23,592 bases of DNA, from positions 1 to 23,592 of the IMG/VR virus record IMGVR_UViG_3300044998_000171; one strand, written 5' to 3'. The notes beneath the pieces are model-generated. The model made no database searches. It was given only the letters and a program-made list of their open reading frames with translations, and had not been told where the DNA came from. This stretch comes from a virus. Made by a program: the position numbers and the translations under genes. Numbering within the stretch: the first letter of the stretch is position 1; every line of letters begins with the position of its first letter. This document shows, in pieces, positions 7,364 to 21,680 of this stretch.

Positions 7364-7963
7364 TCAGGCGGCGGCAGCCGCCTTCTCCTTCTTGAACTGC
7401 TCCTCGGTGAGGCCGAGCTGGCGGCAGACCGCGATCTCCTCGGCATTGAGGCCGTCGCCATGGGCGCCGGCCGGCGGCGCGGCCTTGGCGCCGCCACCCT
7501 GGCCGCCACTGGGGGCGACGATCACCGGCTGGGCCTTGCACCAGGCAACGAAGCCGTCGAGATCCTTGGCGGCGTAGGCCTTCGCCCAATCCTCCATTGC
7601 CGGCGCCAGCTTGCCGGCGGCCTTTGCCTCGGCGACGGCAGCGGCCACCTTGTCGCCGGCGAGCTGCTGCGACATGGCGGCGACCTTCTCCTGCAGATCC
7701 TCGAACGCCTTGATCGGCACGAACTTGGCCGGATCGGGATCGGTCGCCTTGGCCTTCGTGGCCAGTTCTTGCGCGGCTGCGGCGATCGCCTCGCCGGTCG
7801 CGTTCTCCGCCTGGCCAAGGGCCTTGGCGATGGTGGCGATCGAGGCCTTGGTGGCCTTCACGTCGTCGGCCAGCTTCTGGCAGGCGGCGGCGATCTGGTC
7901 CTCGGTCGAGCCGGCCTGGAGACCGGTCAGCGCGAGCAGGGCGGCAAGCAGTTTCGGATCCAT
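7364..7963 (-). CDS. Z: Nested head scaffold protein (Z-like), in-frame inside protease gene
   Basis: An internal ATG at 7963 begins MDPKLLAALLALTGLQAG in the same frame as the protease gene. It is preceded by AGAGG with a 6-base spacing (AGAGGACACCATG), a better Shine-Dalgarno arrangement than many true starts here. The 199-aa product would be an Ala/Lys/Glu-rich helical scaffold ending in a FKKEKAAAAA tail. In Mu, Z is encoded in exactly this way within I. The scaffold is thought to guide capsid assembly and then be cleaved by the protease. Translation from this start is inferred. Confidence 0.7.
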   Translation of the reverse strand: MDPKLLAALLALTGLQAGSTEDQIAAACQKLADDVKATKASIATIAKALGQAENATGEAIAAAAQELATKAKATDPDPAKFVPIKAFEDLQEKVAAMSQQLAGDKVAAAVAEAKAAGKLAPAMEDWAKAYAAKDLDGFVAWCKAQPVIVAPSGGQGGGAKAAPPAGAHGDGLNAEEIAVCRQLGLTEEQFKKEKAAAAA

Positions 7964-8455
7964 GGTGTCCTCTTCTGGTTCGGAGAAATGCTGACTGGCG
8001 ATCGCCGTCAGTTCGAGCGCGGGGGCGTTGGTCAGGCCGAAGGCGCGGAGGCGGGTGACGGAGCCGTCGTCCTGGTAGCCGAAGACCGGCGACAGGTAGC
8101 GGTATTCGCGGGCGACGATGCTGGCCGCAGCTTTCGCGGTCCATTCGACCCGCCCCCAGATGCCGTCGACGCGCACCTGCAGGTCCTTGATCCAGCCCGA
8201 GGCCGGGGCCGGCTTGCCGTTCTCGGCGGCATGCAGAAGCTGGTGTTCGTAATCGCCCGGGATGTCGCCGCTGCCGTGGAGCTGGCGGGTGGCGGCGACG
8301 ATCCGCTCGGCATGCGCCCGGTCCCGGATCTGCCAGGGGCCACGGCCATCGCGTGCGGTGAACCTGCCCATGGGCAGCAGATGCACCCAATCGGGTGCCT
8401 GGTTGCCTTCCGGTAGCTCAAAGGAACATGCGGCGATGTTGGCGCGCTTCTTCAA
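7364..8455 (-). CDS. I: Head maturation protease / scaffold, Mu gpI type
   Basis: A 363-aa protein. The start is a TTG at 8455 with AGGA about 9 bases upstream; family similarity begins within the first 12 residues (FELPEGNQAPDWVHLLPMGRF), so a later ATG would cut into the conserved part. Residues 1-160 are the protease domain, with RFTARDGRGPWQI, the GDYEHQLLHA segment and the VEWTAKAAASIVAREYRYLSPVFGY region. The rest is a long Ala-rich scaffold segment. It cleaves scaffold and possibly capsid proteins during head maturation. It is the first gene after the activator-type dyad at 8509-8535. Confidence 0.88.
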   Translation of the reverse strand: MKKRANIAACSFELPEGNQAPDWVHLLPMGRFTARDGRGPWQIRDRAHAERIVAATRQLHGSGDIPGDYEHQLLHAAENGKPAPASGWIKDLQVRVDGIWGRVEWTAKAAASIVAREYRYLSPVFGYQDDGSVTRLRAFGLTNAPALELTAIASQHFSEPEEDTMDPKLLAALLALTGLQAGSTEDQIAAACQKLADDVKATKASIATIAKALGQAENATGEAIAAAAQELATKAKATDPDPAKFVPIKAFEDLQEKVAAMSQQLAGDKVAAAVAEAKAAGKLAPAMEDWAKAYAAKDLDGFVAWCKAQPVIVAPSGGQGGGAKAAPPAGAHGDGLNAEEIAVCRQLGLTEEQFKKEKAAAAA

Positions 8456-8484: not shown

Positions 8485-8535
8485 AGGATGGCCGGACGGG
8501 GGCGATTTGGGGTGCTAAAGGGCTTTACTACCGCC
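8485..8535 (-). promoter_or_regulatory. Candidate activator-dependent late promoter, copy 2 (upstream of protease I)
   Basis: On the plus strand GGGGTGCTAA (8509-8518), a 6-base spacer and TTACTAC (8525-8531) form an interrupted dyad. The same element occurs at 16725-16747 with 21 of 23 bases identical. About 32 bases from its centre, in the direction of transcription, lies a weak -10-like CATCCT (8490-8485). The protease I start codon is 54 bases beyond the dyad. Mu has its C-activated promoter PI in this place, and Mor/C proteins bind interrupted dyads upstream of weak -10 boxes. Binding by the Mor-like protein is inferred. Confidence 0.6.
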
Positions 8536-8920: not shown

Positions 8921-10186
8921 TCAATCCCCGCTTTCGTCGATACCGGCAGGTTTTTCAGGCCGGCCGAACAGCAATTTGCCATGCCGCTGCCGCTGGAGGC
9001 GGCCGAGACGATTCGCCGGAATGAACGTCCAGGCTTCCAGCCGGCCCTTGACCGCCTGGATGACCGAGAGCAGCGCCTGCTTGTCGTCACCGATCTGAAC
9101 GGCCTTGATGATGCGCTTCCTGAGTTCGACCCGGCCGGTGCCCTTGTGGCGCTCGAAGGACAGCCAGATTTCGAAGGGGTCGGTCAGCAGCTCGGGCAGG
9201 AACGGGATCAGGGCCGCACGGTCGCCATGTCCCGCGATATGCCCGGCGAGGCTCTCGGCGTTGACGGCCACCACGCTCCCATCCGGAAGGTCGAAGATCT
9301 TCTCTTTGCCGCCGATCGCGCGCTCGATCGCCCCGGTCATCTGTTCCGGCGAAGCCGCCCTTTCACCGATTTTGGCGACAGGGGCGTCGAGCGGAACGTT
9401 GCCTGGCCGCTGATAGCTTCGCCAATCGCCTGGTGTCAGCGGTTCCCAGCTATCGGCCACGCTGGCCGCGCGCCATTGGTCCATGACGTCATCAGCGAGC
9501 TTCTTGCCATAGGCGGTGCTGCCGGGATTGTAGCCAAAGCCTGGGTCGATGCCGGCAGGCACCTGGATGGTGCGGCGGCCGTCTGGAAAATTTACCTCGC
9601 GGTCGACCAGCTCAACCGGCGGCGCCTCCTCGCTGACCTTGATGCCGTAGCGTTTGAGATCCCGGCCTGAGAGCGTCTGCACGGTGCAACGGCAGTTCCA
9701 GCCATTCGGCGGGTAATGCGTGTCCCACCATTCATGATCCACCGGCAGCACCGTGTTGTGCCAATGCCGGTGCAGCTCCCGGGTGCGGCCGTCATCGACC
9801 GCGATGTAGCGCATCCAGGGGCGCTCTTTCTTCAGGCGCTGCGCCTGGTCGTATTTGCCTGCGGCATAGGCCATGCGCAGATTGGTGTTGTAGATCACCC
9901 GCGTGCGCCAATTGCGGCCGCCGCGATAGGACCAGCCATGGGCGGCGACGATCGTGTCGAAGTCCTTGCGGAACTCGGAGAGCGTGGTGCCGCCTTCCAG
10001 CGCCTTCAGGACAGCGCTCTGCAGATCCTTGATCAACTCGTCCTTCATCGCGCCTGCGACAACGAAGGCGCGGGCATGCTCGGCCTGCCAGAGATCGGTC
10101 CAGGTCGCGGTCGGCAGCCGCACCTTGTCGCGGAAATACTTGATCGCCTCCTCGAAGGGAACGGCGCCCACTTGCGGATCAGGCAT
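8921..10186 (-). CDS. F: MuF-type minor head protein with C-terminal nuclease-like domain
   Basis: A 421-aa protein starting MPDPQVGAVPFEEAIKYFRDK at the ATG at 10186 (GAGG six bases upstream), overlapping the portal gene by 8 bases. Residues about 65-185 are the phage Mu F head morphogenesis domain, containing WRTRVIYNTNLRMAYAAG, the HWHNTVLPVDHEWW stretch and PPNGWNCRCTV. Residues about 278-408 form a separate domain with LAGHIAGHGDRAALIPFLPELL, then PFEIWLSFERH and GRLEAWTFIP. This resembles the barnase/EndoU/ColicinE5-D/RelE-like nuclease domains (PBECR class) found at MuF C-termini. The head role is established for the family; delivery of a nuclease into the host cell is a hypothesis. 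Confidence 0.87.
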   Translation of the reverse strand: MPDPQVGAVPFEEAIKYFRDKVRLPTATWTDLWQAEHARAFVVAGAMKDELIKDLQSAVLKALEGGTTLSEFRKDFDTIVAAHGWSYRGGRNWRTRVIYNTNLRMAYAAGKYDQAQRLKKERPWMRYIAVDDGRTRELHRHWHNTVLPVDHEWWDTHYPPNGWNCRCTVQTLSGRDLKRYGIKVSEEAPPVELVDREVNFPDGRRTIQVPAGIDPGFGYNPGSTAYGKKLADDVMDQWRAASVADSWEPLTPGDWRSYQRPGNVPLDAPVAKIGERAASPEQMTGAIERAIGGKEKIFDLPDGSVVAVNAESLAGHIAGHGDRAALIPFLPELLTDPFEIWLSFERHKGTGRVELRKRIIKAVQIGDDKQALLSVIQAVKGRLEAWTFIPANRLGRLQRQRHGKLLFGRPEKPAGIDESGD

Positions 10187-11768
10187 CGTCGACCTCGTCG
10201 CGGCCGGCAAGGTTGGCTGTCAGCATCGCATTGGCGATCTGCTGCGCGATCTCGCTCGGGTCCATGCCCGGATAGGCTTCGAGGATCCGCGCCGAGAGTT
10301 CCTCCAGCGTCGAGATCGACGGGTCGTTCACCAGCTCCTTCAACCGGTCGATCATGCGGTCGACGGCCGGTCCGGCGACGCGGTCGAGCTGCCGGCCGAG
10401 GCGCTGCACGCTGTCGAGCTCGCGGGCGCCGAGGTCCTCCTGCGCGGCGGCAGCGGCCTTCTCTGCTGCAAGCTCCTTTTCCTCCTCCCCGGCCGGATCG
10501 TCATCGCCGCGGCCCGTGGGCGGCGCCTTGGCCGGCGCGTGCAGGACTTCTTCGTCCTCGGCCGCGTCGGGGATACCCAGCTTGTCGGCCATGATCGAGC
10601 GCGAAACGCGCAGGCCCAGCGGCACCAGCCGGGTAACATTCTCGACCAACTTGCTGACGTCTTCCTGGTCCGGCCGATGCAGGCGAATGCGGGGATAGCG
10701 GGGTCGCGGCCCCATGTTGAGATCGACGATCGGTCGGGCGACGTCGCGGGTGAGGGTTGCCGCGAGCTGCGCTGCATCCGCCTGCTCGATATCGTCGCGC
10801 ACCTTCTCATGCGCATCTGCCGTGCCGACCCGGCTCCCGGTATCCGTGGTGCCGGTCTGGCCGAGGACGGATTTGGAGGTCTGCCGGTCGATCCAGTCGG
10901 CCAAGCGCTCGAAGAGGTCGATGCTGCCGCTGATCTTGGCCTCGATCAGATCGACCGTCATTGAGGCCGGGATGATCGCGGCGGCATCCGACCAGATGTT
11001 GCGGACCGCGCGCAGCAGCGTCGCCTTCTCCGCCTCGCTGGCGCCCGGCCCGTATTTGCCGATGCGCAGCGGCTTGCCATAGGCCTCGGCGAACTGCACC
11101 CAGGATTTGATGTCGAAGTTCTTGAAAAGGTAGAACCAGGCGACCGGCCGCGCCAGGCCGCCCCGGATCGGCAGGCCGGATTTGGATTTGGCGACATGGC
11201 GGATATAGCCATAGGGCTTCAGGGGCTGCAGCTGGCCATCATCACCGCGCAGCATGATCGTCTCGCCATCGGTACGGTCGAAGCCGAACCAGCGCGGGTC
11301 GCGCCAGGCGAACCGCTTCGGTATCCAGACCTTGCCGGTCTCCCAGACGATCTCGGTGACCGAGAAGCCTTTGCCGATGGCATCCAGGATATCGAACAGT
11401 TCCTGCTGGATCGTGTCGCGCCACAGCGCCTCGCGCACCAGGTCGGCCGCTTTCTGATCGTCTTTCTCGTCGCTGGCGGCCTCGACCGTGATCTCCAGCC
11501 CGGCGACCTGGTTGCGCCTAGTGGCCAGCACCGACCGGTAGTGGGGGTCCTTCTCCTCCATCTGCTCGGCCAGCTCCAGATAGCCCTTCTCGTCGCCTTC
11601 CTCAGCGGCGCGCAATAGATGGGCTAGGCGGATCGGCGTCAGCCCGTCGGCCGGGTGGTCGGTCAGCACCTGGCGAACGCCGGTGACGGTCGGTTTCGCC
11701 TCCTCCTCGGTCAGCCTTGCGAGCTCAACCGGATTGTCCCACTGGTCGTACAGTTGAAACCTTGCCAT
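10179..11768 (-). CDS. Portal protein, Mu gp29 type (DUF935)
   Basis: A 529-aa protein starting MARFQLYDQWDNPVELARLTEEEAKP, preceded by GAGG about 7 bases from the ATG. DUF935 portal features are AHLLRAAEEGDEKGYLELAEQMEEKDPHYRSVLATRRNQVAGLEITV, then GFSVTEIVWE, KRFAWRDPRWFGFDR and RPVAWFYLFKNFDIKSWVQFAEAYGKPLRIGKY. These are followed by QTSKSVLGQTGTTD and a charged helical C-terminus. The portal is the dodecameric ring at one capsid vertex through which DNA is packaged and ejected. It lies between terminase and F, the Mu order. Confidence 0.93.
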   Translation of the reverse strand: MARFQLYDQWDNPVELARLTEEEAKPTVTGVRQVLTDHPADGLTPIRLAHLLRAAEEGDEKGYLELAEQMEEKDPHYRSVLATRRNQVAGLEITVEAASDEKDDQKAADLVREALWRDTIQQELFDILDAIGKGFSVTEIVWETGKVWIPKRFAWRDPRWFGFDRTDGETIMLRGDDGQLQPLKPYGYIRHVAKSKSGLPIRGGLARPVAWFYLFKNFDIKSWVQFAEAYGKPLRIGKYGPGASEAEKATLLRAVRNIWSDAAAIIPASMTVDLIEAKISGSIDLFERLADWIDRQTSKSVLGQTGTTDTGSRVGTADAHEKVRDDIEQADAAQLAATLTRDVARPIVDLNMGPRPRYPRIRLHRPDQEDVSKLVENVTRLVPLGLRVSRSIMADKLGIPDAAEDEEVLHAPAKAPPTGRGDDDPAGEEEKELAAEKAAAAAQEDLGARELDSVQRLGRQLDRVAGPAVDRMIDRLKELVNDPSISTLEELSARILEAYPGMDPSEIAQQIANAMLTANLAGRDEVDDA

Positions 11769-11777
11769 ATCGCTACC

Positions 11778-13145
11778 TCAAAATGCCCCGGGGCCGAATG
11801 CGCCCGCCCGGTCGTCGTCGTCGCCATTGCGCTGGCTGCCGGCCACCATCGCCGGCTGATAGCCGTATTCCTCGGTCGGACCCTTCGATGCCGCGATACC
11901 CAGCATGCCGGCCCAGAACCGGTCGGCATGGCCTTCCGCATCGTCATCCGCCACCAGGCGAATGCCGCCCGTTTCGCCGGTGACCTTCTTCACCTTGTGC
12001 AGATCGGCGCGCAGCCGGGTGTCGCCCATCGGGATCCGCACCTTGCGATCCTCAAAGGCCTGTTTGCCGATCGTGGCGATGTTGAGGCGCGTCGCCCCCT
12101 GCAGCAGGACGCCGTCGACGCGCAGTTCGCCATAGCGCAGCTTGGCATCCTCGACCGGTTTCTCGCCCATGCCGCCCTGGTCCATGGCCAGGCGCATCAT
12201 GCGGTATCTGTGCGCCAGTTCGTCCATGATCAGATCCTGCTGCGCGAAGGGGATGTTCTTCTCGGCGCGGATCTCGCGGGTCCAGAGCACATCGCCGACC
12301 AGTTCGAACACCCAGGCGACCCACAGATTGTTCCGGCGGGCGATATCATTGCCGATGAAGACCTGGCCACCCTGATAGAGTTCGGGCCGCCCGGCCTTCT
12401 CATCCTCGCAGGAGGTGATCAAGTCGTAGGTGAGCCAGGCCGAGGACTCGTCGGCCCAGTTCAGCAGGAACTCCTGGTCCCAGGCCTCATCGTCATTGAT
12501 GCCGGCCTTCAACTCTTCGATGTTGCGTGGCAAGCCGTCGGCAACGGCCTTATGGATGTCCACGGTATGGCGCGACCACACGGAATCGCGCGACGTCATC
12601 AGCTCGTAGAACTTGTTGCCCTTGCCGTTCGGCGTCGAGGTGACGCGGATCTTCCAGCCGGCGGAGATCACCGGAAAGAGCGCCTTCCAGATTTCGCGGC
12701 TGTCGCGGTGAAAGGCGAACTCATCCAGAAAGACATTGGCCGAGAAGCCGCGTGCCGTGTCGGGGTTGGCGGGGAGCGCCGTGATGCGGCTGCCGCCAGG
12801 CAGGGTCACCTCCAGGGCTTTGTAACTGACCTCGGGCTTGTCATCCGGGTGCCAGTCGTACTCAATCTCGTTCTCGATGGCGAAGTTGAACGCGGCCTCA
12901 TAGGCCTTGGCATGGAGCTTGATGCCGGTATCCATAGCCTCCTTGGCTTGCCGCTCGCCACGGGACAGGATCACCCAGCGCGCGCGGCGCCCCTGCGACC
13001 AGGCCTCGAAACAATCGTCAACGATTTCCTGCGTCGTGGTAAACGTCTTGCCGGTCTGGCGCGCGAACATGCCTATTTTGAAGCGGCTCTTGTCCTGAAC
13101 CCACTTGCGCTGATAGTCGTAGAGCTGGAGCGCCGGACCGGTCAT
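11778..13145 (-). CDS. Terminase large subunit, Mu gp28 type
   Basis: A 455-aa protein starting MTGPALQLYDYQRKWVQDKSRF. The ATPase domain shows a Walker A-like ARQTGKT at residues 28-34, Walker B VFLDE at 138-142 and a following SAGWKIRVTSTPNGKGNKF coupling segment. The C-terminal half carries an RNase H-like nuclease fold beginning VFIGNDIARRNNLWVAW, with further acidic positions in MRLAMDQGGMGE and VADDDAEGHADRFWA. It pumps DNA into the prohead and cuts host-flanked phage DNA during headful packaging. The neighbouring DUF3486 gene probably supplies the small-subunit role. Confidence 0.93.
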   Translation of the reverse strand: MTGPALQLYDYQRKWVQDKSRFKIGMFARQTGKTFTTTQEIVDDCFEAWSQGRRARWVILSRGERQAKEAMDTGIKLHAKAYEAAFNFAIENEIEYDWHPDDKPEVSYKALEVTLPGGSRITALPANPDTARGFSANVFLDEFAFHRDSREIWKALFPVISAGWKIRVTSTPNGKGNKFYELMTSRDSVWSRHTVDIHKAVADGLPRNIEELKAGINDDEAWDQEFLLNWADESSAWLTYDLITSCEDEKAGRPELYQGGQVFIGNDIARRNNLWVAWVFELVGDVLWTREIRAEKNIPFAQQDLIMDELAHRYRMMRLAMDQGGMGEKPVEDAKLRYGELRVDGVLLQGATRLNIATIGKQAFEDRKVRIPMGDTRLRADLHKVKKVTGETGGIRLVADDDAEGHADRFWAGMLGIAASKGPTEEYGYQPAMVAGSQRNGDDDDRAGAFGPGAF

Positions 13146-13154
13146 CGCTCCACC

Positions 13155-13685
13155 TCAACCGACAATGCCGTAGATTTCTTCGCGGATCTTCTTCAGTAGT
13201 GCCGCCTTGTCGACCGGACCGGCGTCGTCGATCGCCTTTTCCGCCGCCTTCACCGTCTTCTCGGCAAACTCCCGGCGCAGCCGCGCCGCCGCCTCGATAT
13301 CCGCCTTGTTTGCGGCCGACAACGACTGCAGCGATTTAGCGAGGAACATCACCTCGGCCGGCTCCAGCGCGGCATCACCGGCCAGCAGCTTCATCACGAC
13401 GGCATGCATCAGCTCGATATTGATGCGCGAGGTCCTGTTGTCCTGCTCCTCGCCGAACTGCTTGACCAGCGCCTCGGCCACGGCCCGGCTCTCCCGCATG
13501 CGCTCGGCGATCTTGTCGATCTTCTGCACATGCTCGCCAAGGCCCGTGCGCGAAATATCGAGGTCAGGCTTCAGCTCGCGCAGCTTCGCCATGATCTGGT
13601 CGATCGTGGCGCCATCCTGGCGGAGCTGGCCAATGAGCTCGCGCAAGGATGCCGGCAGCTTGTCGATCTTGGAGGGCCGGGCCAT
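13155..13685 (-). CDS. DUF3486 protein, Mu gp27 type (terminase small-subunit candidate)
   Basis: A 176-aa protein starting MARPSKIDKLPASLRELIGQLRQDGATIDQIMAKLREL. The ATG at 13685 has AGG seven bases upstream; a GTG one codon earlier is possible. The N-terminal 50 residues look like the helix-turn-helix of DUF3486, in the segment ISRTGLGEHVQKIDKI. The remainder is helical and charged. The family sits immediately before the large terminase in Mu-like phages and is believed to bind DNA for packaging. The gene is 9 bases from the large subunit gene. Confidence 0.87.
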   Translation of the reverse strand: MARPSKIDKLPASLRELIGQLRQDGATIDQIMAKLRELKPDLDISRTGLGEHVQKIDKIAERMRESRAVAEALVKQFGEEQDNRTSRINIELMHAVVMKLLAGDAALEPAEVMFLAKSLQSLSAANKADIEAAARLRREFAEKTVKAAEKAIDDAGPVDKAALLKKIREEIYGIVG

Positions 13686-13693
13686 CACTGCAC

Positions 13694-13999
13694 CTACCGG
13701 GCGATCGGGCGTGGCGGTGCCAGGCCTTCGATGCGCTGGCCGCGGCCCTCGGCGAAGTCGAGACCCCGCTCCAGCAACTTCGCCACCATCACCGGGCCGA
13801 ACATCTCGGTCCGGATCAGGGCATGCGCCTCAAGGAAGGCGAGATCCGCGCGCACATCGTCGCGGCTGGTCAGCGGAAAGCCGAGCTGGTTCGCCAGCAC
13901 CGTCTGCAGCACCGAATCGTTGATCTCGCCGGCATTCTCACGCAGCAGGTGGAGAATGGCGAGGCGGCGTTTCTCCGCCAGGTGTTCCTTGAAGCTCAT
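13694..13999 (-). CDS. Mu gp26-like winged-helix protein
   Basis: A 101-aa protein starting MSFKEHLAEKRRLAILHLLRENAGEINDSVLQTVLANQLG. The layout is that of the small winged-helix gp26 / VpaChn25_0724 group: a first helix, a GEINDSVLQTVL recognition-like segment, RDDVRADLAFLEAHALI and then a basic tail. Its ATG overlaps the stop of the DUF2730 gene as ATGA. The role is not established; the position just before the terminase pair suggests packaging or regulation. Confidence 0.82.
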   Translation of the reverse strand: MSFKEHLAEKRRLAILHLLRENAGEINDSVLQTVLANQLGFPLTSRDDVRADLAFLEAHALIRTEMFGPVMVAKLLERGLDFAEGRGQRIEGLAPPRPIAR

Positions 14000-14343
14000 C
14001 GGCTTGGCCTCGTATTCAACAGGTGTTCCGAAATGTGCTGAACCGCCGCCTGGATGCCTTCCATCGTCTCTTTGAGGCCGGTCATGGTGGCAGCCATCGC
14101 TTTGTAGTCGCCATGGATGGTCGCCAGCTGCACCTTCAGATCACCGATCTCGCCGATCGTGGGCAGGCCGGCGAGTTTTTGCTCGGCGAGCTGCAGGCGA
14201 GTACCGACTTCGTTGATGCGGCGATGCAGCTTGCCGATCTCATCGGTGCTGGCGAAGGCCTTCCGCATCGACCAGACGTACCAGGCCAACAGGGCATTGA
14301 GCGCCAGGGCGATCAGCGGGGAATATGTGACGATCTCGGTCAC
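13996..14343 (-). CDS. DUF2730 membrane-anchored coiled-coil protein
   Basis: A 115-aa protein starting at a GTG (14343) that overlaps the previous TGA as GTGA. One N-terminal transmembrane segment (SPLIALALNALLAWYVWSM, residues 8-26) is followed by a long helical region with heptad-like spacing (IGKLHRRINEVGTRLQLAEQ and further to residue 105). This matches DUF2730, found in the Mu gp25 position. Anchoring in the inner membrane is expected; the function is unknown. Its place beside the lysis genes leaves a lysis role open. Confidence 0.82.
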   Translation of the reverse strand: MTEIVTYSPLIALALNALLAWYVWSMRKAFASTDEIGKLHRRINEVGTRLQLAEQKLAGLPTIGEIGDLKVQLATIHGDYKAMAATMTGLKETMEGIQAAVQHISEHLLNTRPSR

Positions 14344-14549
14344 CGTTCTCTCTCCTCCTGGCACTCGACGCAGAAGCACGCCGCCGGCACGGCCAACTTT
14401 CGTTCCGCCGGGATCTCGCAGCCGCAATCGCAGCAATGCAGAGTTCCCTTCATCCGCGCCGACGCCGCCGCTCGGTCGAGCTGGCGGCGCCTGTCATGCT
14501 CCAGGACCCGCGCGGCGAGGTCCTGCGCCTGATCGACGCTATCCGGCAT
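14340..14549 (-). CDS. TraR/DksA-type C4 zinc finger protein
   Basis: A 69-aa protein starting MPDSVDQAQDLAARVLEHDRR at the ATG at 14549, overlapping the upstream gene by 11 bases. It has a helical N-terminus and then a zinc finger C39-x2-C42-x17-C60-x2-C63, the exact spacing of the TraR/DksA family. TraR-like proteins bind RNA polymerase in the secondary channel and change promoter choice without ppGpp. A phage copy could alter host or late phage transcription; this is inference. The family call is firm on the cysteine spacing and length. Confidence 0.88.
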   Translation of the reverse strand: MPDSVDQAQDLAARVLEHDRRRQLDRAAASARMKGTLHCCDCGCEIPAERKLAVPAACFCVECQEERER

Positions 14550-14799
14550 CGGGTTGCGCGCCCGGCTGCGCGCCGGGCTGCGCGGCCGCCCGTTCCCGCC
14601 GGCGCTTGTCGATGAGCAGGATGATGCCGTCCACCCCGGCATTGCGCTTCTCGACACAGCTCCTGCAGATATCGAGATCGGTCGATTCCCAGCCATGACG
14701 GGCGAGGTTGGCGCGCGCCGCCGCTTCGCTTGTCGACGGCACGAACAGGAACCGGTCGCAGATGTCGCAATTGCAGTTGAAGCCGGCTGGCCGCAGCAT
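14539..14799 (-). CDS. Small Cys-rich zinc-ribbon-like protein
   Basis: An 86-aa protein starting MLRPAGFNCNCDICDRFLFVP. It has a CxCxxC cluster (C9, C11, C14) and a second pair, C45-x2-C48, which together could bind one zinc ion. The middle TSEAAARANLARHGWEST is helical. The C-terminus after KRRRERAA is a low-complexity AQPGAQPGAQPDAG tail. It stands 4 bases after the endolysin gene and overlaps the TraR-like gene. I do not recognise a named family. Confidence 0.75.
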   Translation of the reverse strand: MLRPAGFNCNCDICDRFLFVPSTSEAAARANLARHGWESTDLDICRSCVEKRNAGVDGIILLIDKRRRERAAAQPGAQPGAQPDAG

Positions 14800-14803
14800 G
14801 GGA

Positions 14804-15217
14804 TCACTTCACATTGTTGTAGAACACATGGGCGCCGATCCGGACGCAGGGCTTGAGGCCCTTGGCCCAGACCGGAAGGATATTGTGGACGTGGTAATGC
14901 GTGGCGCCCTTGGTGGGGTCCGGCGCCTTGTCGCGCAGGACCTGGTCGACCACCTCCATGCATTGCCGGAATGCGGCGATCGCCAGCGTGACGCTATGGA
15001 CCTGCTTGAAGTTCGCATCGTTCCGGTTCCAGCAGGAGAACTGGTATTTCTTCAGGCAGACGCCCTTGATGTCTCGCCCCCACCAACCCGGCCTTGCCGC
15101 CCGATTGCGGATCACCCACGCGACCGCGATCTGCCCGGCGCGCTGCTCGCCGCGTGCCTCGCCATAGACGGTGCGCGCCATGATGTCGGCGTCCTCTGGG
15201 GTATAGGTGATGCTCAT
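14804..15217 (-). CDS. Cell wall hydrolase, SleB-type (endolysin)
   Basis: A 137-aa protein starting MSITYTPEDADIMARTVYGEARGE; the ATG overlaps the TGA of the DUF1353 gene as ATGA, with GGAAGG upstream. The Hydrolase_2/SleB pattern is clear: the catalytic-type glutamate in ARTVYGEARGE (E20), then AVAWVIRNRA, CLKKYQFSCWN and the ending THYHVHNILPVWAKGLKP. These enzymes cut peptidoglycan glycan strands. No signal peptide is visible, so release should depend on the holin-like protein upstream. Confidence 0.9.
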   Translation of the reverse strand: MSITYTPEDADIMARTVYGEARGEQRAGQIAVAWVIRNRAARPGWWGRDIKGVCLKKYQFSCWNRNDANFKQVHSVTLAIAAFRQCMEVVDQVLRDKAPDPTKGATHYHVHNILPVWAKGLKPCVRIGAHVFYNNVK

Positions 15218-15684
15218 GTTCCCACCTTCCGCAGACCGTTCTCGGCCTTGTACGAATTGACCCTGTAGCGGGAGCGGCCAAATGCGCGCACCGCCGTATA
15301 GGCCTTCAGGGCGTCGCGGATGCTGGTGCCGCCAGCGCGCATCAGCGCATAAAACAGGTGATCCGCCAGCTCGCGGCCGTCGCCCTTGGCATGGGGATCG
15401 AAGAGCCGCGTCCAATAGCACCAGTCATGCACGATGCTGGCCTCGAAGAGCGCACCCCAGAAGGGGACCAGACCATGGAGGCGCGGCGGTACCGAGGGTG
15501 ACGCCTGAAAGCCTTTCGGCACGGTGATGGTCCAGCGGCCGCCGTCCCAGAGAAACCCGACCGAGTAGTCTTCAGCCAGGATAGCCTCCACGCGGGCGCC
15601 GTCGCGCTTGACCGCCACGGCCTCCCGGATGATGACCAGGCGGCGGCTGAAGGTGGCGCCGTCGATTTCCGGGCTGGTGATCAA
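15214..15684 (-). CDS. DUF1353 phage protein
   Basis: A 156-aa protein with a TTG start at 15684, overlapping the previous TGA as TTGA. GGAGG lies seven bases upstream and no ATG or GTG gives the full domain. The DUF1353 pattern is visible: FSRRLVIIREAVAV, WTITVPKGFQASPSVPP, the histidine-containing EASIVHDWCYW, then RELADHLFYALMRAGGTS and KAYTAVRAFG. The family is common in phage lysis or tail neighbourhoods and its biochemical role is unknown. Here it lies between the lipoprotein and the endolysin. Confidence 0.85.
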   Translation of the reverse strand: MITSPEIDGATFSRRLVIIREAVAVKRDGARVEAILAEDYSVGFLWDGGRWTITVPKGFQASPSVPPRLHGLVPFWGALFEASIVHDWCYWTRLFDPHAKGDGRELADHLFYALMRAGGTSIRDALKAYTAVRAFGRSRYRVNSYKAENGLRKVGT

Positions 15685-16394
15685 GGCAACGCCTCCAGCG
15701 TGAGCGTCGGCACCGGCACTGGCACCGGCACCGGCACGTCGATCGCGCCGATCATGGCCCCCATGCGTGCCTGGATCGTGTCGATCCGCCGCCTGCATCC
15801 GGCCATGGTCTCGGCCGGATCTGCCGTGCCGGCATTGAGCGCCAGGATGCGGTTGCGGATATCGGCGATACCGGCCGAGAGCAGCGTGCCCTGGCGCGCC
15901 GCGATCTTGGCCCGGTCGAGCAGGCCCAGCACGTTGACGCCGCCGGCAAAGTTCGAGAGCAGCGTTGGCAGGCGGCTCTTGGCGGAATCGACCAGGATTG
16001 CCGTCACGGTCAGGGTGACCTTGGCGATATCGGTGTTGAGAAACATGTCGTCGGCCGCCTCGAACTGGTCGACGGCGGCATCGAGCGAGGCGATATAGCC
16101 GTAGCCCACGACGGCATTCTCCGGCTCCAGCGAAAACCGGTCCGCCACCACCTCGCCGATCACGGCGACGATCAGGCACATGCGCACCGAGCGATGGTCC
16201 TGACCGCTGACCTCGCCCAGGATGCGGTCGGCCATGCGCTGTGCCAGCGTGGTGTCTTCCTTGGCCGCATCCTCGATATTGCCGATCACCCGTGTCGAGG
16301 TGCAGCCGGCGATCATCACCGCCATCGCCGCGATCAGCAGGACCGCACAGAAGGGGTTGGCCGCCCAGGCCACCGCCTCAATCAGCCGACGCAT
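15681..16394 (-). CDS. Predicted phage lipoprotein in lysis cassette
   Basis: A 237-aa protein starting MRRLIEAVAWAANPFCAVLL at the ATG at 16394, overlapping the holin-like gene by 17 bases. Residues 1-30 are a lipoprotein signal peptide with lipobox IAGC, giving a lipidated Cys31. The mature part is mainly helical. Its C-terminus contains five Val-Pro pairs encoded by a hexamer repeat and ends TLTLEALP. Placement between holin and endolysin suggests an envelope role such as a spanin-like or lysis accessory function, but I do not recognise the family. Confidence 0.75.
   Translation of the reverse strand: MRRLIEAVAWAANPFCAVLLIAAMAVMIAGCTSTRVIGNIEDAAKEDTTLAQRMADRILGEVSGQDHRSVRMCLIVAVIGEVVADRFSLEPENAVVGYGYIASLDAAVDQFEAADDMFLNTDIAKVTLTVTAILVDSAKSRLPTLLSNFAGGVNVLGLLDRAKIAARQGTLLSAGIADIRNRILALNAGTADPAETMAGCRRRIDTIQARMGAMIGAIDVPVPVPVPVPTLTLEALP
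15709..15738. repeat. GGCACC hexamer tandem repeat (five units)
   Basis: Five consecutive units read GGCACC, with the second (GGCACT) and fifth (GGCACG) changed in the last base. They encode the Val-Pro repeat near the C-terminus of the lipoprotein. Because each unit is six bases, gain or loss changes the length of the linker without shifting frame. Confidence 0.85.
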
Positions 16395-16635
16395 GGAGAT
16401 CCTCCCTGGCTTTCGAGAGCCGCGCCTGCAGCCAGGAGAAGCCGCCGACCAGCAGCATGGCCGCACCCGTGAACAGGGTTGTGAGAACGCTCTCTGCGGC
16501 CTGCGCCACCTCGGGCGGCAGCGCATCGAGCCCGTAGCGGTGCATGGCCAGCGTGGTGAGATGCGGAGCCAGGCCAAGATAGGCGGTGGCGCCGGCCGCG
16601 ACGGTGCTTTGGGTGGTCGTTGAAAGCTGGTTCAT
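16378..16635 (-). CDS. Holin-like small membrane protein
   Basis: An 85-aa protein starting MNQLSTTTQSTVAAGATAYLG at the ATG at 16635, with GGAG six bases upstream; a GTG five codons earlier lacks a site. A weakly hydrophobic N-terminal half (residues 12-30) is followed by a strong membrane segment, VLTTLFTGAAMLLVGGFSWL (about residues 51-70), and a charged C-terminal tail ending KAREDLHASAD. It is the first gene behind the candidate middle/late promoter and precedes the lipoprotein and endolysin genes. Holin function is inferred from this context and topology. Confidence 0.65.
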   Translation of the reverse strand: MNQLSTTTQSTVAAGATAYLGLAPHLTTLAMHRYGLDALPPEVAQAAESVLTTLFTGAAMLLVGGFSWLQARLSKAREDLHASAD

Positions 16636-16699: not shown

Positions 16700-16750
16700 A
16701 GGTTAGGGTGAGGGCACCCGCGTCGGGGTGCTAAAGCGCGTTACTACGCC
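16700..16750 (-). promoter_or_regulatory. Candidate activator-dependent promoter, copy 1 (after mor, before lysis genes)
   Basis: On the plus strand GGGGTGCTAA (16725-16734), a 6-base spacer and TTACTACGCC (16741-16750) form an interrupted dyad with 7 of 10 matching half-site positions. It overlaps the mor stop codon (16746-16744). A weak -10-like TAACCT (16705-16700) starts 32 bases from the dyad centre. A GC hairpin CCGGCA/TGCCGG (16668-16684) would lie at the start of the transcript. Only one other copy (8509-8535) is seen in the window. Mu has its Mor-activated promoter at this position. Confidence 0.65.
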
Positions 16751-17190
16751 GGGAAGAGATCGAGCTGCGGCGTCGGCATTTCGCCGTTCGAGCGCGCCTT
16801 GCGCAGCATGCCATAGACGGCCTGTTCGGTGACAGCCATGCGCCGGGCGATCTCGCGCACGCTAACGCCGGCGGCGTCATAGGACAACACCTTCGCGCGG
16901 CGCGCCTTGTTCTGGGCAGCCGTCATGCGGGGAACCGCGATCAGCATATCGCCCTGGCTGGCACCACCGCCGCGCCAGATCTTCCAGATTCGTTCGGCAT
17001 CGGCCGGCCCAAGCTCCTGGACGATGACGCTGGTAGCGGAGAGTCGCGCCGGGATCTTGACGCGCTGCCCGCCCAGCCGCGCTACCACGCGCAGCATCAG
17101 CTCCTCGCCGTCCGGCCCGCTTTCCAGCAGCCGCACGCAGGGCTCCGGCAAATAGCCGTAGGTCTCGCGATATGAAGGTCTAGCGCTCAC
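16744..17190 (-). CDS. mor: Mor-type transcriptional activator
   Basis: A 148-aa protein with a GTG start at 17190, overlapping the gemA TGA as GTGA. The middle contains RLGGQRVKIPARL, then ERIWKIWRGG, the strand/helix pattern of the Mor/C dimerisation domain. The C-terminus is a helix-turn-helix: GVSVREIARRMAVTEQAVYGMLRKAR. Mu Mor follows gp16 (GemA) in the same way and switches on the middle promoter; Mu C is a paralogue for late promoters. No second Mor/C protein is seen between here and the terminase genes. One activator may therefore serve both dyads in this window. Confidence 0.8.
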   Translation of the reverse strand: MSARPSYRETYGYLPEPCVRLLESGPDGEELMLRVVARLGGQRVKIPARLSATSVIVQELGPADAERIWKIWRGGGASQGDMLIAVPRMTAAQNKARRAKVLSYDAAGVSVREIARRMAVTEQAVYGMLRKARSNGEMPTPQLDLFPA

Positions 17191-18112: not shown

Positions 18113-18754
18113 CTATTGCTCCACCTGGTTGCCCCAGAACACCCAGCCATCCGGCGCCTTGCCGCGCGCGAACAGCTCGATTTTGGGGAGACCCGGAAAG
18201 TACTGGTCGATGATTTCGCGGAAGCAGGACGGCTTCACCGAATGACCGGCCGTGTCCGCCTTGATGGCGCTGTCGACCGCTTCGCCGAGAGGCGGTGGCG
18301 GCACGCTGCCCTTCACGCCGATCAGCAGCAACTCGTGCCGATCGCGGCCCCAGCGGCCGAGCCCCAGCGTGTTTTTCAGCCACACCAGGTTGGAGACATA
18401 GTCGAAGCCCCAATGCGCCATCAGCTTGAGGCCGTCAGGCAGGTGTTCGCGCGATACCCAGAGGAAGATGACGGCATCGTCATTGGCGATGGCAGGCACG
18501 TCGAGCGCCATGATCGCCTCCAGTTCCATGACCGGATAATGCGCCTCCGGTGCTTTCTCCTTGCCGGCGTCGCTATAGATGCGGTGCTTCCAGGGCGGAT
18601 CGGCATAGATGACCGCATAGCGCCCATTGGGCCAGGCGAAGCCGGTTTGTCGGCAGGTCTCGGCGATTGCAGCCAGGCGGCGCTTGTGGCTCTCCCTGGC
18701 GCGGCTGCTCCGGATCGCCTTGGCCCGGCGCAGGATCTCGGCTTCGCTCTCCAT
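18113..18754 (-). CDS. MT-A70 family adenine methyltransferase
   Basis: A 213-aa protein starting MESEAEILRRAKAIRSSRARE. The catalytic DPPW is at residues 52-55 within YAVIYADPPWKH. Further MT-A70 features are YPVMELEAIMAL, DDAVIFLWVSREHLPDGLKLMAHWGF, YVSNLVWLKNTLGLGRW and RDRHELLLIGVKG. The enzyme transfers a methyl group from SAM to N6 of adenine; phage members are believed to protect phage DNA from restriction. Mu uses Mom for the same purpose. The ATG shares one base with the previous stop (TGATG). Confidence 0.92.
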   Translation of the reverse strand: MESEAEILRRAKAIRSSRARESHKRRLAAIAETCRQTGFAWPNGRYAVIYADPPWKHRIYSDAGKEKAPEAHYPVMELEAIMALDVPAIANDDAVIFLWVSREHLPDGLKLMAHWGFDYVSNLVWLKNTLGLGRWGRDRHELLLIGVKGSVPPPPLGEAVDSAIKADTAGHSVKPSCFREIIDQYFPGLPKIELFARGKAPDGWVFWGNQVEQ

Positions 18755-20486: not shown

Positions 20487-20639
20487 CTAGAACAGCGCCC
20501 GGATCAGCCGGGCCAGAGCGGCGTGGATCCCGCGCCCCTCGGTGAATGTCGACCTGCGTCGACGACGGCGGTGCCGGCTCGGCGGCGCCGAGATCGCACC
20601 GCCGAGATAGGCCAGGTTAGAAATGATGAGACGGGTCAT
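20487..20639 (-). CDS. Small basic ORF between the DnaA-like and DUF3164 genes
   Basis: A 50-aa frame starting MTRLIISNLAYLGGAISAPPS at the ATG at 20639 and ending before the GGAGG of the DUF3164 gene. It overlaps the DnaA-like gene by 23 bases. Residues 5-17 are hydrophobic; then comes RHRRRRRRSTF and a helical HAALARLIRALF end. It fills the only sizeable gap in an otherwise gapless operon, which supports it; the absence of a strong ribosome site argues against it. Confidence 0.45.
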   Translation of the reverse strand: MTRLIISNLAYLGGAISAPPSRHRRRRRRSTFTEGRGIHAALARLIRALF

Positions 20640-21069
20640 TGCTGCCGGCCCGGAGAACCAGCTGGTCGAAGCCCTTCGGGTTTTCGATTGCCAGCCTTTC
20701 CAGAGATTGCAGGACGTAGCGGCCGACCCGGCGCGACAGGCGCTCGTGAACGGCGGGCGCCGGTGTCAGCAGATTGTCGGCCATCATCTCCTGGACACTC
20801 TTGCGCAGCGCCTCCACCTTCTCGGCAAATTCGGCGTCGCGATCGATCAGGTCCCTGGCGCGCTCGATGCCGTGCATCACGGTGGTGTGGTCGCGCTTGC
20901 CCATGAAACGGCCGATGGAAGGCAGCGACAGGCCGAGCTGCTGGCGGACGACGAGGTAGAAGGCGAAGCGCGGCAGCGCCAGCTCGCGGCAACGGCCGGC
21001 ACCCTGGATCATGACCGGTGCCGTGCCGAAGATCCGGCCGGTCGCCGCCAGGACAGGTTGCAAATTCAT
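20617..21069 (-). CDS. Stand-alone DnaA domain IV-like DNA-binding protein
   Basis: A 150-aa protein starting MNLQPVLAATGRIFGTAPVMI at the ATG at 21069 (ATGA overlap). Residues 28-71 match the C-terminal DNA-binding domain of DnaA: PRFAFYLVVRQQLGLSLPSIG, then the signature RDHTTV at 59-64 and HGIERARDLI. The AAA+ ATPase part of DnaA is wholly absent. The C-terminal 70 residues are helical and not DnaA-like. In DnaA this domain reads the 9-bp DnaA box. A phage version could occupy host boxes or act as a transcription factor; function is inferred. Confidence 0.85.
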   Translation of the reverse strand: MNLQPVLAATGRIFGTAPVMIQGAGRCRELALPRFAFYLVVRQQLGLSLPSIGRFMGKRDHTTVMHGIERARDLIDRDAEFAEKVEALRKSVQEMMADNLLTPAPAVHERLSRRVGRYVLQSLERLAIENPKGFDQLVLRAGSNDPSHHF

Positions 21070-21299
21070 GACTCCCTCCCCCCGAAAGCGAGGACGTTCT
21101 CGCCATAGGCCTGCTGCCGGATCTCCGCGCAGACCACGCGGGCATGTTCGGCGACGGAGCAGGATTCGAGATGGCCGACGCCCTCTGCCGCCGCGCGCAG
21201 ACGCTGCGCCACGAAGGCCAGGTCCGGCGCCGGCCGCGACTTGACGCTGAGGGATTCCTCGATCGATGCGGCGAGGTTGTTGAGCTGCTGGCTCCACAT
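21066..21299 (-). CDS. Small phage protein, unknown function
   Basis: A 77-aa protein starting MWSQQLNNLAASIEESLSVKS, mostly helical, with APDLAFVAQRLRAAAEGVGHLE and VAEHARVVCAEIRQQAYGENV. It starts three bases after the HTH gene and overlaps the DnaA-like gene by four bases. No family recognised. Confidence 0.68.
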   Translation of the reverse strand: MWSQQLNNLAASIEESLSVKSRPAPDLAFVAQRLRAAAEGVGHLESCSVAEHARVVCAEIRQQAYGENVLAFGGRES

Positions 21300-21302
21300 G
21301 GC

Positions 21303-21680
21303 TCAAGCTCCTTTTCCGGTGTTGAAGGGACAGGTGCGGCAGGCGTTCAGCATCCGCCGGCGCTGGCTGCTAACCGGCTCGAAGTTCTCCGCCTTCTCCT
21401 GCCAATCCAGGCATTGCGCGAGGGTGAGATCGCCCAGCTCCGGACACTGCCGGCGCTCCGACATGAGCGTCGCGCGCACCCGGAGGGCGATCTTGTCGGT
21501 CGGCGCCGAGTAGCGCCGGTTGAGGACGTAGGAAATGGTCGAGGGCGAATAGCCGACTTGGGCCGCGGCCCTCTTCAAGCCGATGGCATCGCAACGCGCG
21601 GCGAGATGCCCAATCCAGTCCGGCGCCTCCTTGCCCCAGGCCGCCTCGGCATTGGCCGTATGGCTGACATGCGCCTTCAT
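21303..21680 (-). CDS. Small HTH DNA-binding protein
   Basis: A 125-aa protein starting MKAHVSHTANAEAAWGKEAPDWI at the ATG at 21680 (ATGA overlap). Residues about 35-60 form a lambda-repressor-like helix-turn-helix: GLKRAAAQVGYSPSTISYVLNRRY. This is followed by TDKIALRVRATLM and a C-terminal CRTCPFNTGKGA with a Cys pair. Such proteins in Mu-like early regions are probably regulators. Whether this one acts as a Ner/repressor type is not clear. Confidence 0.78.
   Translation of the reverse strand: MKAHVSHTANAEAAWGKEAPDWIGHLAARCDAIGLKRAAAQVGYSPSTISYVLNRRYSAPTDKIALRVRATLMSERRQCPELGDLTLAQCLDWQEKAENFEPVSSQRRRMLNACRTCPFNTGKGA

Follow-up and report, generated by a model that had tools for sequence, protein, structure and literature searches.

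Matched dyads at two late operon fronts in a Mu-like phage contig: candidate operators of a single Mor/C-family activator

A repeated element at two operon fronts

The stretch of viral DNA considered here, referred to throughout as the window, is a 23,592-base IMG/VR contig (record IMGVR_UViG_3300044998_000171). It carries two copies of an interrupted dyad, GGGGTGCTAA-N6-TTACTAC, which agree at 21 of 23 bases and differ at two (Table 1). A search with the pattern GGGGTGCTAANNNNNNTTACTAC returned exactly these two matches, with no further copy elsewhere in the 23,592-base window at up to three mismatches, and the mean number expected by chance was 0.00 in 100 dinucleotide-preserving shuffles. 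Outside the window, the exact motif was encountered once among viral contigs, inside a gene of a podovirus (L004), and this match was judged to be due to chance.

The late genes adjoining both elements all lie on the minus strand, so the element was handled as GTAGTAA-N6-TTAGCACCCC, an orientation that puts the genes under its control on the left. In the direction of transcription, both sites have the core AGTAA-N6-TTAGC, followed in each case by ACCCC. Both consist of two 5-bp arms separated by a GC-rich 6-bp spacer, the arms being imperfect, as they are in Mu. Site A overlaps the TAG stop codon (16746-16744) of the mor gene, whilst site B is situated just upstream of protease I. An earlier note on this DNA, made by reading the letters, had described the element as occurring twice with 21 of 23 bases the same and nowhere else, had pointed to the weak -10-like boxes TAACCT and CATCCT, and had recognised only one Mor/C-family gene. 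Each of these observations was borne out: the pattern search finds the two copies alone, the boxes are present where they had been placed, and a profile search finds one Mor-like open reading frame (ORF) in the window.

The first gene behind site A encodes a small membrane protein, which its hydrophobic stretch suggests to be holin-like; its ATG stands at +102, with GGAGAAGG ahead of it. In the operon that follows, the cell-wall hydrolase and the MuF head protein are named by Pfam matches, whilst the small terminase, large terminase and portal are putative assignments from ORF order and sequence. The MuF head protein (8921-10210, minus strand) carries a PBECR2 nuclease-like domain (E 5e-24) as a C-terminal fusion. 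The first gene behind site B, protease I, begins with TTG at +66, counted from the dyad centre; its mRNA is thus predicted to have a leader. Two further genes of the window deserve mention. A phage protein of the early region (20617-21306, minus strand) contains a DnaA C-terminal DNA-binding domain (PF08299, E 1.8e-13), and an ORF with a DPPW motif (18113-18754, minus strand) resembles, by eye, an adenine methyltransferase of the MT-A70 type.

Table 1. Features at the two operon fronts of the window (signed offsets are counted from the dyad centre)
Feature	Position	Strand	Basis or detail
Mor/C-family activator gene, 148 aa, GTG start	16744..17190	-	iterated HMM search; hhalign to known Mor/C
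Site A, dyad AGTAA-CGCGCT-TTAGC (16745-16730), centre 16738/16737	16725..16747	-	
-10 box TAACCT, predicted promoter of the lysis/packaging operon	16700..16705	-	+32 to +37 from site A centre
First gene behind site A, 85-aa small membrane protein	16378..16635	-	ORF list
Part of the operon behind site A	8921..15421	-	cell-wall hydrolase, putative small terminase, putative large terminase, putative portal, MuF head protein
Site B, dyad AGTAA-AGCCCT-TTAGC (8529-8514), centre 8522/8521	8509..8531	-	
-10 box CATCCT, predicted promoter of the protease I/head operon	8485..8490	-	+31 to +36 from site B centre
Protease I (Mu-like_Pro), first gene behind site B	7364..8455	-	Pfam PF10123, E 7.6e-88

The Mor-like protein and the Mu precedent

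An iterated HMM search found one Mor-like ORF in the window, a 23.6-kb fragment of the phage genome, and hence within it no second, paralogous activator of the kind on which the Mor-then-C cascade of Mu is built; such a gene may lie outside the fragment. By profile comparison, the protein belongs to the Mor/C family, the type to which the earlier note had assigned it. An alignment of 25 relatives matched, in hhalign, a set of six annotated Mor/C proteins (Mu Mor, Mu C and those of D3112, Rhodovulum P1, Mannheimia and Shewanella) along the whole protein with a probability of 99.4% (E 5e-21, 119 columns), and a two-member known set with 96.7% (E 4e-10). The Pfam Mor model (PF08765) was matched by 11 of the 25 relatives at E<=1e-3, the best at 2e-11. 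The window protein itself scores below the curated cut-off of that model (21.0 versus 24.9 bits, E 3.4e-4); since this cut-off is a library threshold and not a biological feature, family membership is taken from the profile comparison. The AlphaFold model of the protein is a confident one, with a pLDDT of 85.9. A Foldseek search with this model recovered helix-turn-helix (HTH) matches only, the solved Mor structure not being among them, and a profile search of PDB sequences found 1RR7 (Mor) at E 5e-4.

In the Mu promoter Pm, a Mor dimer is centred on position -43.5, over two inverted repeats of 5 bp that flank a G/C-rich 6-bp spacer, and experiment has revealed a -10 hexamer and no -35 hexamer (PMC4390567, PMC4287176). 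The Mu site, AGTAA-AGCCGG-TTAAT, begins three bases beyond the mor stop; the placing of this 16-mer at -51 to -36 is our own assignment from annotated promoter coordinates. The window resembles Pm in having a dyad directly after the mor stop, in its arms and spacer, and in a -10 box without a -35 element. Site B is identical to the Mu Mor site at 12 of 16 bases, among them AGTAAAGCC, and the dyad behind mor is positioned with respect to the mor stop as it is in Mu, in keeping with the Mu-like placement that the earlier note had proposed. Among 23 phages, the site of the window is the closest to that of Mu (8 of 10 arm bases, the next best having 5), and its HTH is the second-closest to that of Mu Mor.

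There are also differences. The nANNNT box starts at +30 in Mu, as against +31 to +33 in the window and its relatives. Mor of Mu is known for Pm alone, whereas in the window the same dyad is also found at the protease I operon. The Mu record has Plys and PI in front of the same two operons, one for lysis/packaging and one for protease I/head, but these are served by the second, paralogous activator C, in contrast to the one Mor/C gene of the window. Mu also has the promoters PP and Pmom. No third site that might be a counterpart of the further Mu promoters was seen in the window, where a search for a third copy yielded none that was convincing and had a -10 box.

Conserved geometry and changing letters in related phages

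Protease I searches of viral and bacterial contigs gave about 100 loci, and in nearly all of those with any Mor-like ORF an iterated profile search found just one. The first set comprised 30 loci with a Mor-like ORF 7-9.5 kb upstream of protease I. A new set, from a scan with diverse proteases, added 17 further phages with an upstream Mor-like gene, which were passed through the same pipeline with none dropped, so that 47 related loci were compared at both positions. Other layouts of the same regulon were observed: the Mor-like gene is close upstream of protease I in L037, L079, L086 and L101, as it is in phage KS10 (PMC2628397), and L101 and L037 have a second Mor-like ORF.

The earlier note had made its reading depend on conservation of the motif in relatives. 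The letters are not conserved, and what proved to be conserved is the arrangement. In L003, the closest relative found (62% identity for both the Mor-like protein and protease I), the window motif is absent, which at first looked like a refutation. This was overturned by the finding of a different, perfect dyad, CCTGAA-ACCC-TTCAGG, in both positions: one copy lies across the mor stop codon and the other upstream of protease I. Exact copies of this dyad number exactly two in the 45.6-kb record. Most of the 47 loci likewise have a dyad which matches between the two positions within a phage and differs between phages, for example CCCCCGAAATCTTTCGGGGG (L092), CCCGACAACTGTCGGGG (L054), GGGCGCAACTGTTGCGCCC (L038) and CCTCAAGGGCTTGAGG (L009).

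By ungapped matching, too, the stretch behind mor and the one ahead of protease I have a dyad in common within a phage. Judged against cross-phage nulls, the plain ungapped comparison of the two regions is weak for imperfect dyads, and a dyad-aware score with random windows of the same locus as the null was therefore used. Paired dyads reached p<=0.01 in 20 of the 30 first-set loci. The window pair alone gave only p=0.03, its dyad being imperfect (5/7). A convincing pair was not found in L060, L044, L098, L037, L123, L130, L131, L134 or L148, nor did the score detect a Mor/C-to-PI pair in Mu, as expected of a phage with two activators. Half-sites share on average 14.0 of 16 bases between A and B within a phage, against 7.1 between phages; the within-phage figure is inflated, because the sites were chosen partly for A/B similarity, and for this reason the -10 box is the more important test.

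The -10 box had no part in choosing the sites. After near duplicates and failed pairs had been removed from the first set, 46 sites belonging to 23 phages were left. With the dyad centre as the sole anchor of the alignment, strong information outside the dyad and its immediate flanks appeared only at +33 (A, 33/46) and +37 (T, 30/46), corresponding to nANNNT at +32 to +37, with nothing comparable upstream. At +31 to +33 this box was present in 43 of the 46 sites, compared with 1.5 of 46 per offset in the background. With failures and near duplicates restored, all 30 first-set loci gave 50 of 60 sites; out of sample, the 17 new phages gave 23 of 34 against about 3.7 expected (binomial 7e-15). 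The weak boxes at a fixed distance from the dyads to which the earlier note had drawn attention are thus strongly enriched in relatives. Over the 46 sites, matches to a -35 element equalled the null and an extended -10 (TGn) was absent from every one. A -10 box at a fixed distance, with neither a -35 element nor an extended -10, is the pattern of Pm.

Named phages present the same picture. D3112 has GAACCCCTTC at these two places and nowhere else in its genome, a pair recognised by eye, with nANNNT at +31 in both copies; DMS3 has GAACCCCTTC at both places, again with nANNNT at +31. In JBD25, which is B3-like, mor is encoded on the opposite strand, at the far left end; the lysis operon and protease I are nevertheless each preceded by TTTTCGCYCCTTCCAAAA, and a hand count on the sequences puts nANNNT at +31 and +32. 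At the protease front, 321 bp of Fc02 are identical to JBD25, and RNA-seq of this B3-like phage has its late clusters beginning with lysis genes and with structural genes, after an operon that ends in mor (PMC9936078). D3112 and DMS3 (Casadabanvirus), JBD25 and Fc02 thus resemble the window in having a Mor-like activator gene, and D3112, DMS3 and JBD25 in having an element at both late operon fronts, but GAACCCCTTC and TTTTCGCYCCTTCCAAAA differ from the window dyad. Applied blind, the dyad-aware score was unsuccessful for D3112, Rhodovulum P1 and Shewanella, and in Mannheimia it selected a different pair; by eye, Rhodovulum P1 and Mannheimia share weaker elements, and Shewanella none.

Distance between sites correlates with distance between recognition helices (Mantel r 0.40, p 2e-4). 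Once the N-terminal domain is taken into account, the correlation is weak (partial 0.21, p 0.004), and the reverse partial, for the N-terminal domain, is similar at 0.26. As the N-terminal domain correlates with the sites as well, covariation of site and helix can be separated from common descent only in part.

Given a -10 hexamer at -12 to -7, transcription would begin at about +44 from the dyad centre. Between +43 and +46, an in-frame protease I ATG is present in 24 of 40 phages, made up of 14 of 23 in the first set and 10 of 17 in the new one (binomial 3e-13 for the new set), and in the first set it follows the -10 hexamer by 6-8 nt wherever a box was scored. Such B sites include those of L054, L075, L097, L102 and L051. 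The ATG is also at the predicted start in JBD25 (+44) and in DMS3 (+44, L116:10474), where the annotated protease I start is 126 bp too far downstream (L116:10425-10600). In D3112 (L105:10400-10600), an ATG at +43 is out of frame with the annotated protease I, whereas that of DMS3 is in frame; the D3112 record contains an apparent frameshift near the protease I start, whether natural or a sequencing error. The window phage is among those with a leader, and the sites behind mor mostly have leaders. Since the ATG coincides with the predicted start of transcription, a leaderless late mRNA is the simplest reading, and one that we infer from spacing. It is likely that in most single-activator transposable phages the late head promoter produces a leaderless mRNA starting at the A of the protease I ATG; dyad, -10 box and start codon would then form one rigid cassette, in which the sequence of the dyad drifts with the activator. 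No prior description of paired sites or of a leaderless protease I was found in the open-access literature, most subscription papers being outside that scope.

A probable single activator for the late programme

Together, the paired dyads, the -10 spacing, the protein family and the likeness to Mu support the reading as a Mor/C-type activator regulon put forward in the earlier note. Sites A and B are very probably the operators of two activator-dependent, sigma70-type late promoters governed by one Mor/C-family activator. A dimer of the phage protein would bind each dyad, whose centre is about 44 bp ahead of the transcription start, and would take the place of a -35 element in recruiting host RNA polymerase to a promoter with a -10 box only. 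Site A would start the lysis/packaging operon directly behind mor, and site B the protease I/head operon. One activator would in this way fire both late operons, a task shared in Mu by Mor (at Pm) and the paralogous C (at Plys, PI and others). The steps that we infer are the binding of the Mor-like protein to these dyads and the start of transcription there.

It is very unlikely that the dyads are instead intrinsic terminators or RNA hairpins, which would stop early transcription behind mor and packaging transcription ahead of protease I. Predicted terminators do stand at Pm and Plys in the annotated Mu genome, and T-runs follow several sites (L097A, L100A/B), yet a T-run of four or more within 14 nt accompanies only 7 of 46 sites. 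Terminators need neither a shared sequence within a phage nor a -10 box at a fixed distance, and in JBD25 the element fronts both late operons even though mor is elsewhere on the other strand. Some sites may serve as both terminator and activator site. The dyads behind mor at L097:556-620 and L100:501-560 resemble intrinsic terminators with T-runs and, by analogy with the predicted Mu terminators, may end early transcription besides binding the activator.

It is highly improbable that a different phage regulator, such as an immunity repressor which silences the late promoters in the lysogen, has the dyads as its operators. Their position at about -44, instead of a -35 element, is the place of an activator and that of Mu Mor; promoters with no -35 would need an activator; and copies near early regions were not found in the sequences scanned. 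This is so even though phage-specific dyads are typical of repressor operators and the specificity follows overall phage relatedness as well as the Mor helix. There is next to no chance that the two copies are a fortuitous repeat or a recombination relic without a regulatory role: there are only two, on one contig, but shuffling predicts none, and the comparative data contradict it, the layout recurring with other sequences and a positioned -10 box in dozens of phages.

The two-step Mor/C cascade of Mu is the textbook case. The comparison of phage sequences suggests that many Mu-like phages, the laboratory phages DMS3, D3112 and JBD25 among them, rely on a single activator with two matched promoters. 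As the same two-site layout is found in dozens of relatives, the whole late programme is probably switched on by a single protein of the virus. The paired design is a variant of the Mor/C system and not a new kind, combining a rigid geometry with a freely changing operator sequence. A leaderless head-protease mRNA would, if true, mean that a late phage gene is translated without a ribosome-binding site, and with this reading the start of a DMS3 gene is corrected. The dyads of dozens of phages, differing in sequence within a fixed geometry, also constitute a data set from which the reading of DNA by Mor/C proteins may be learned.
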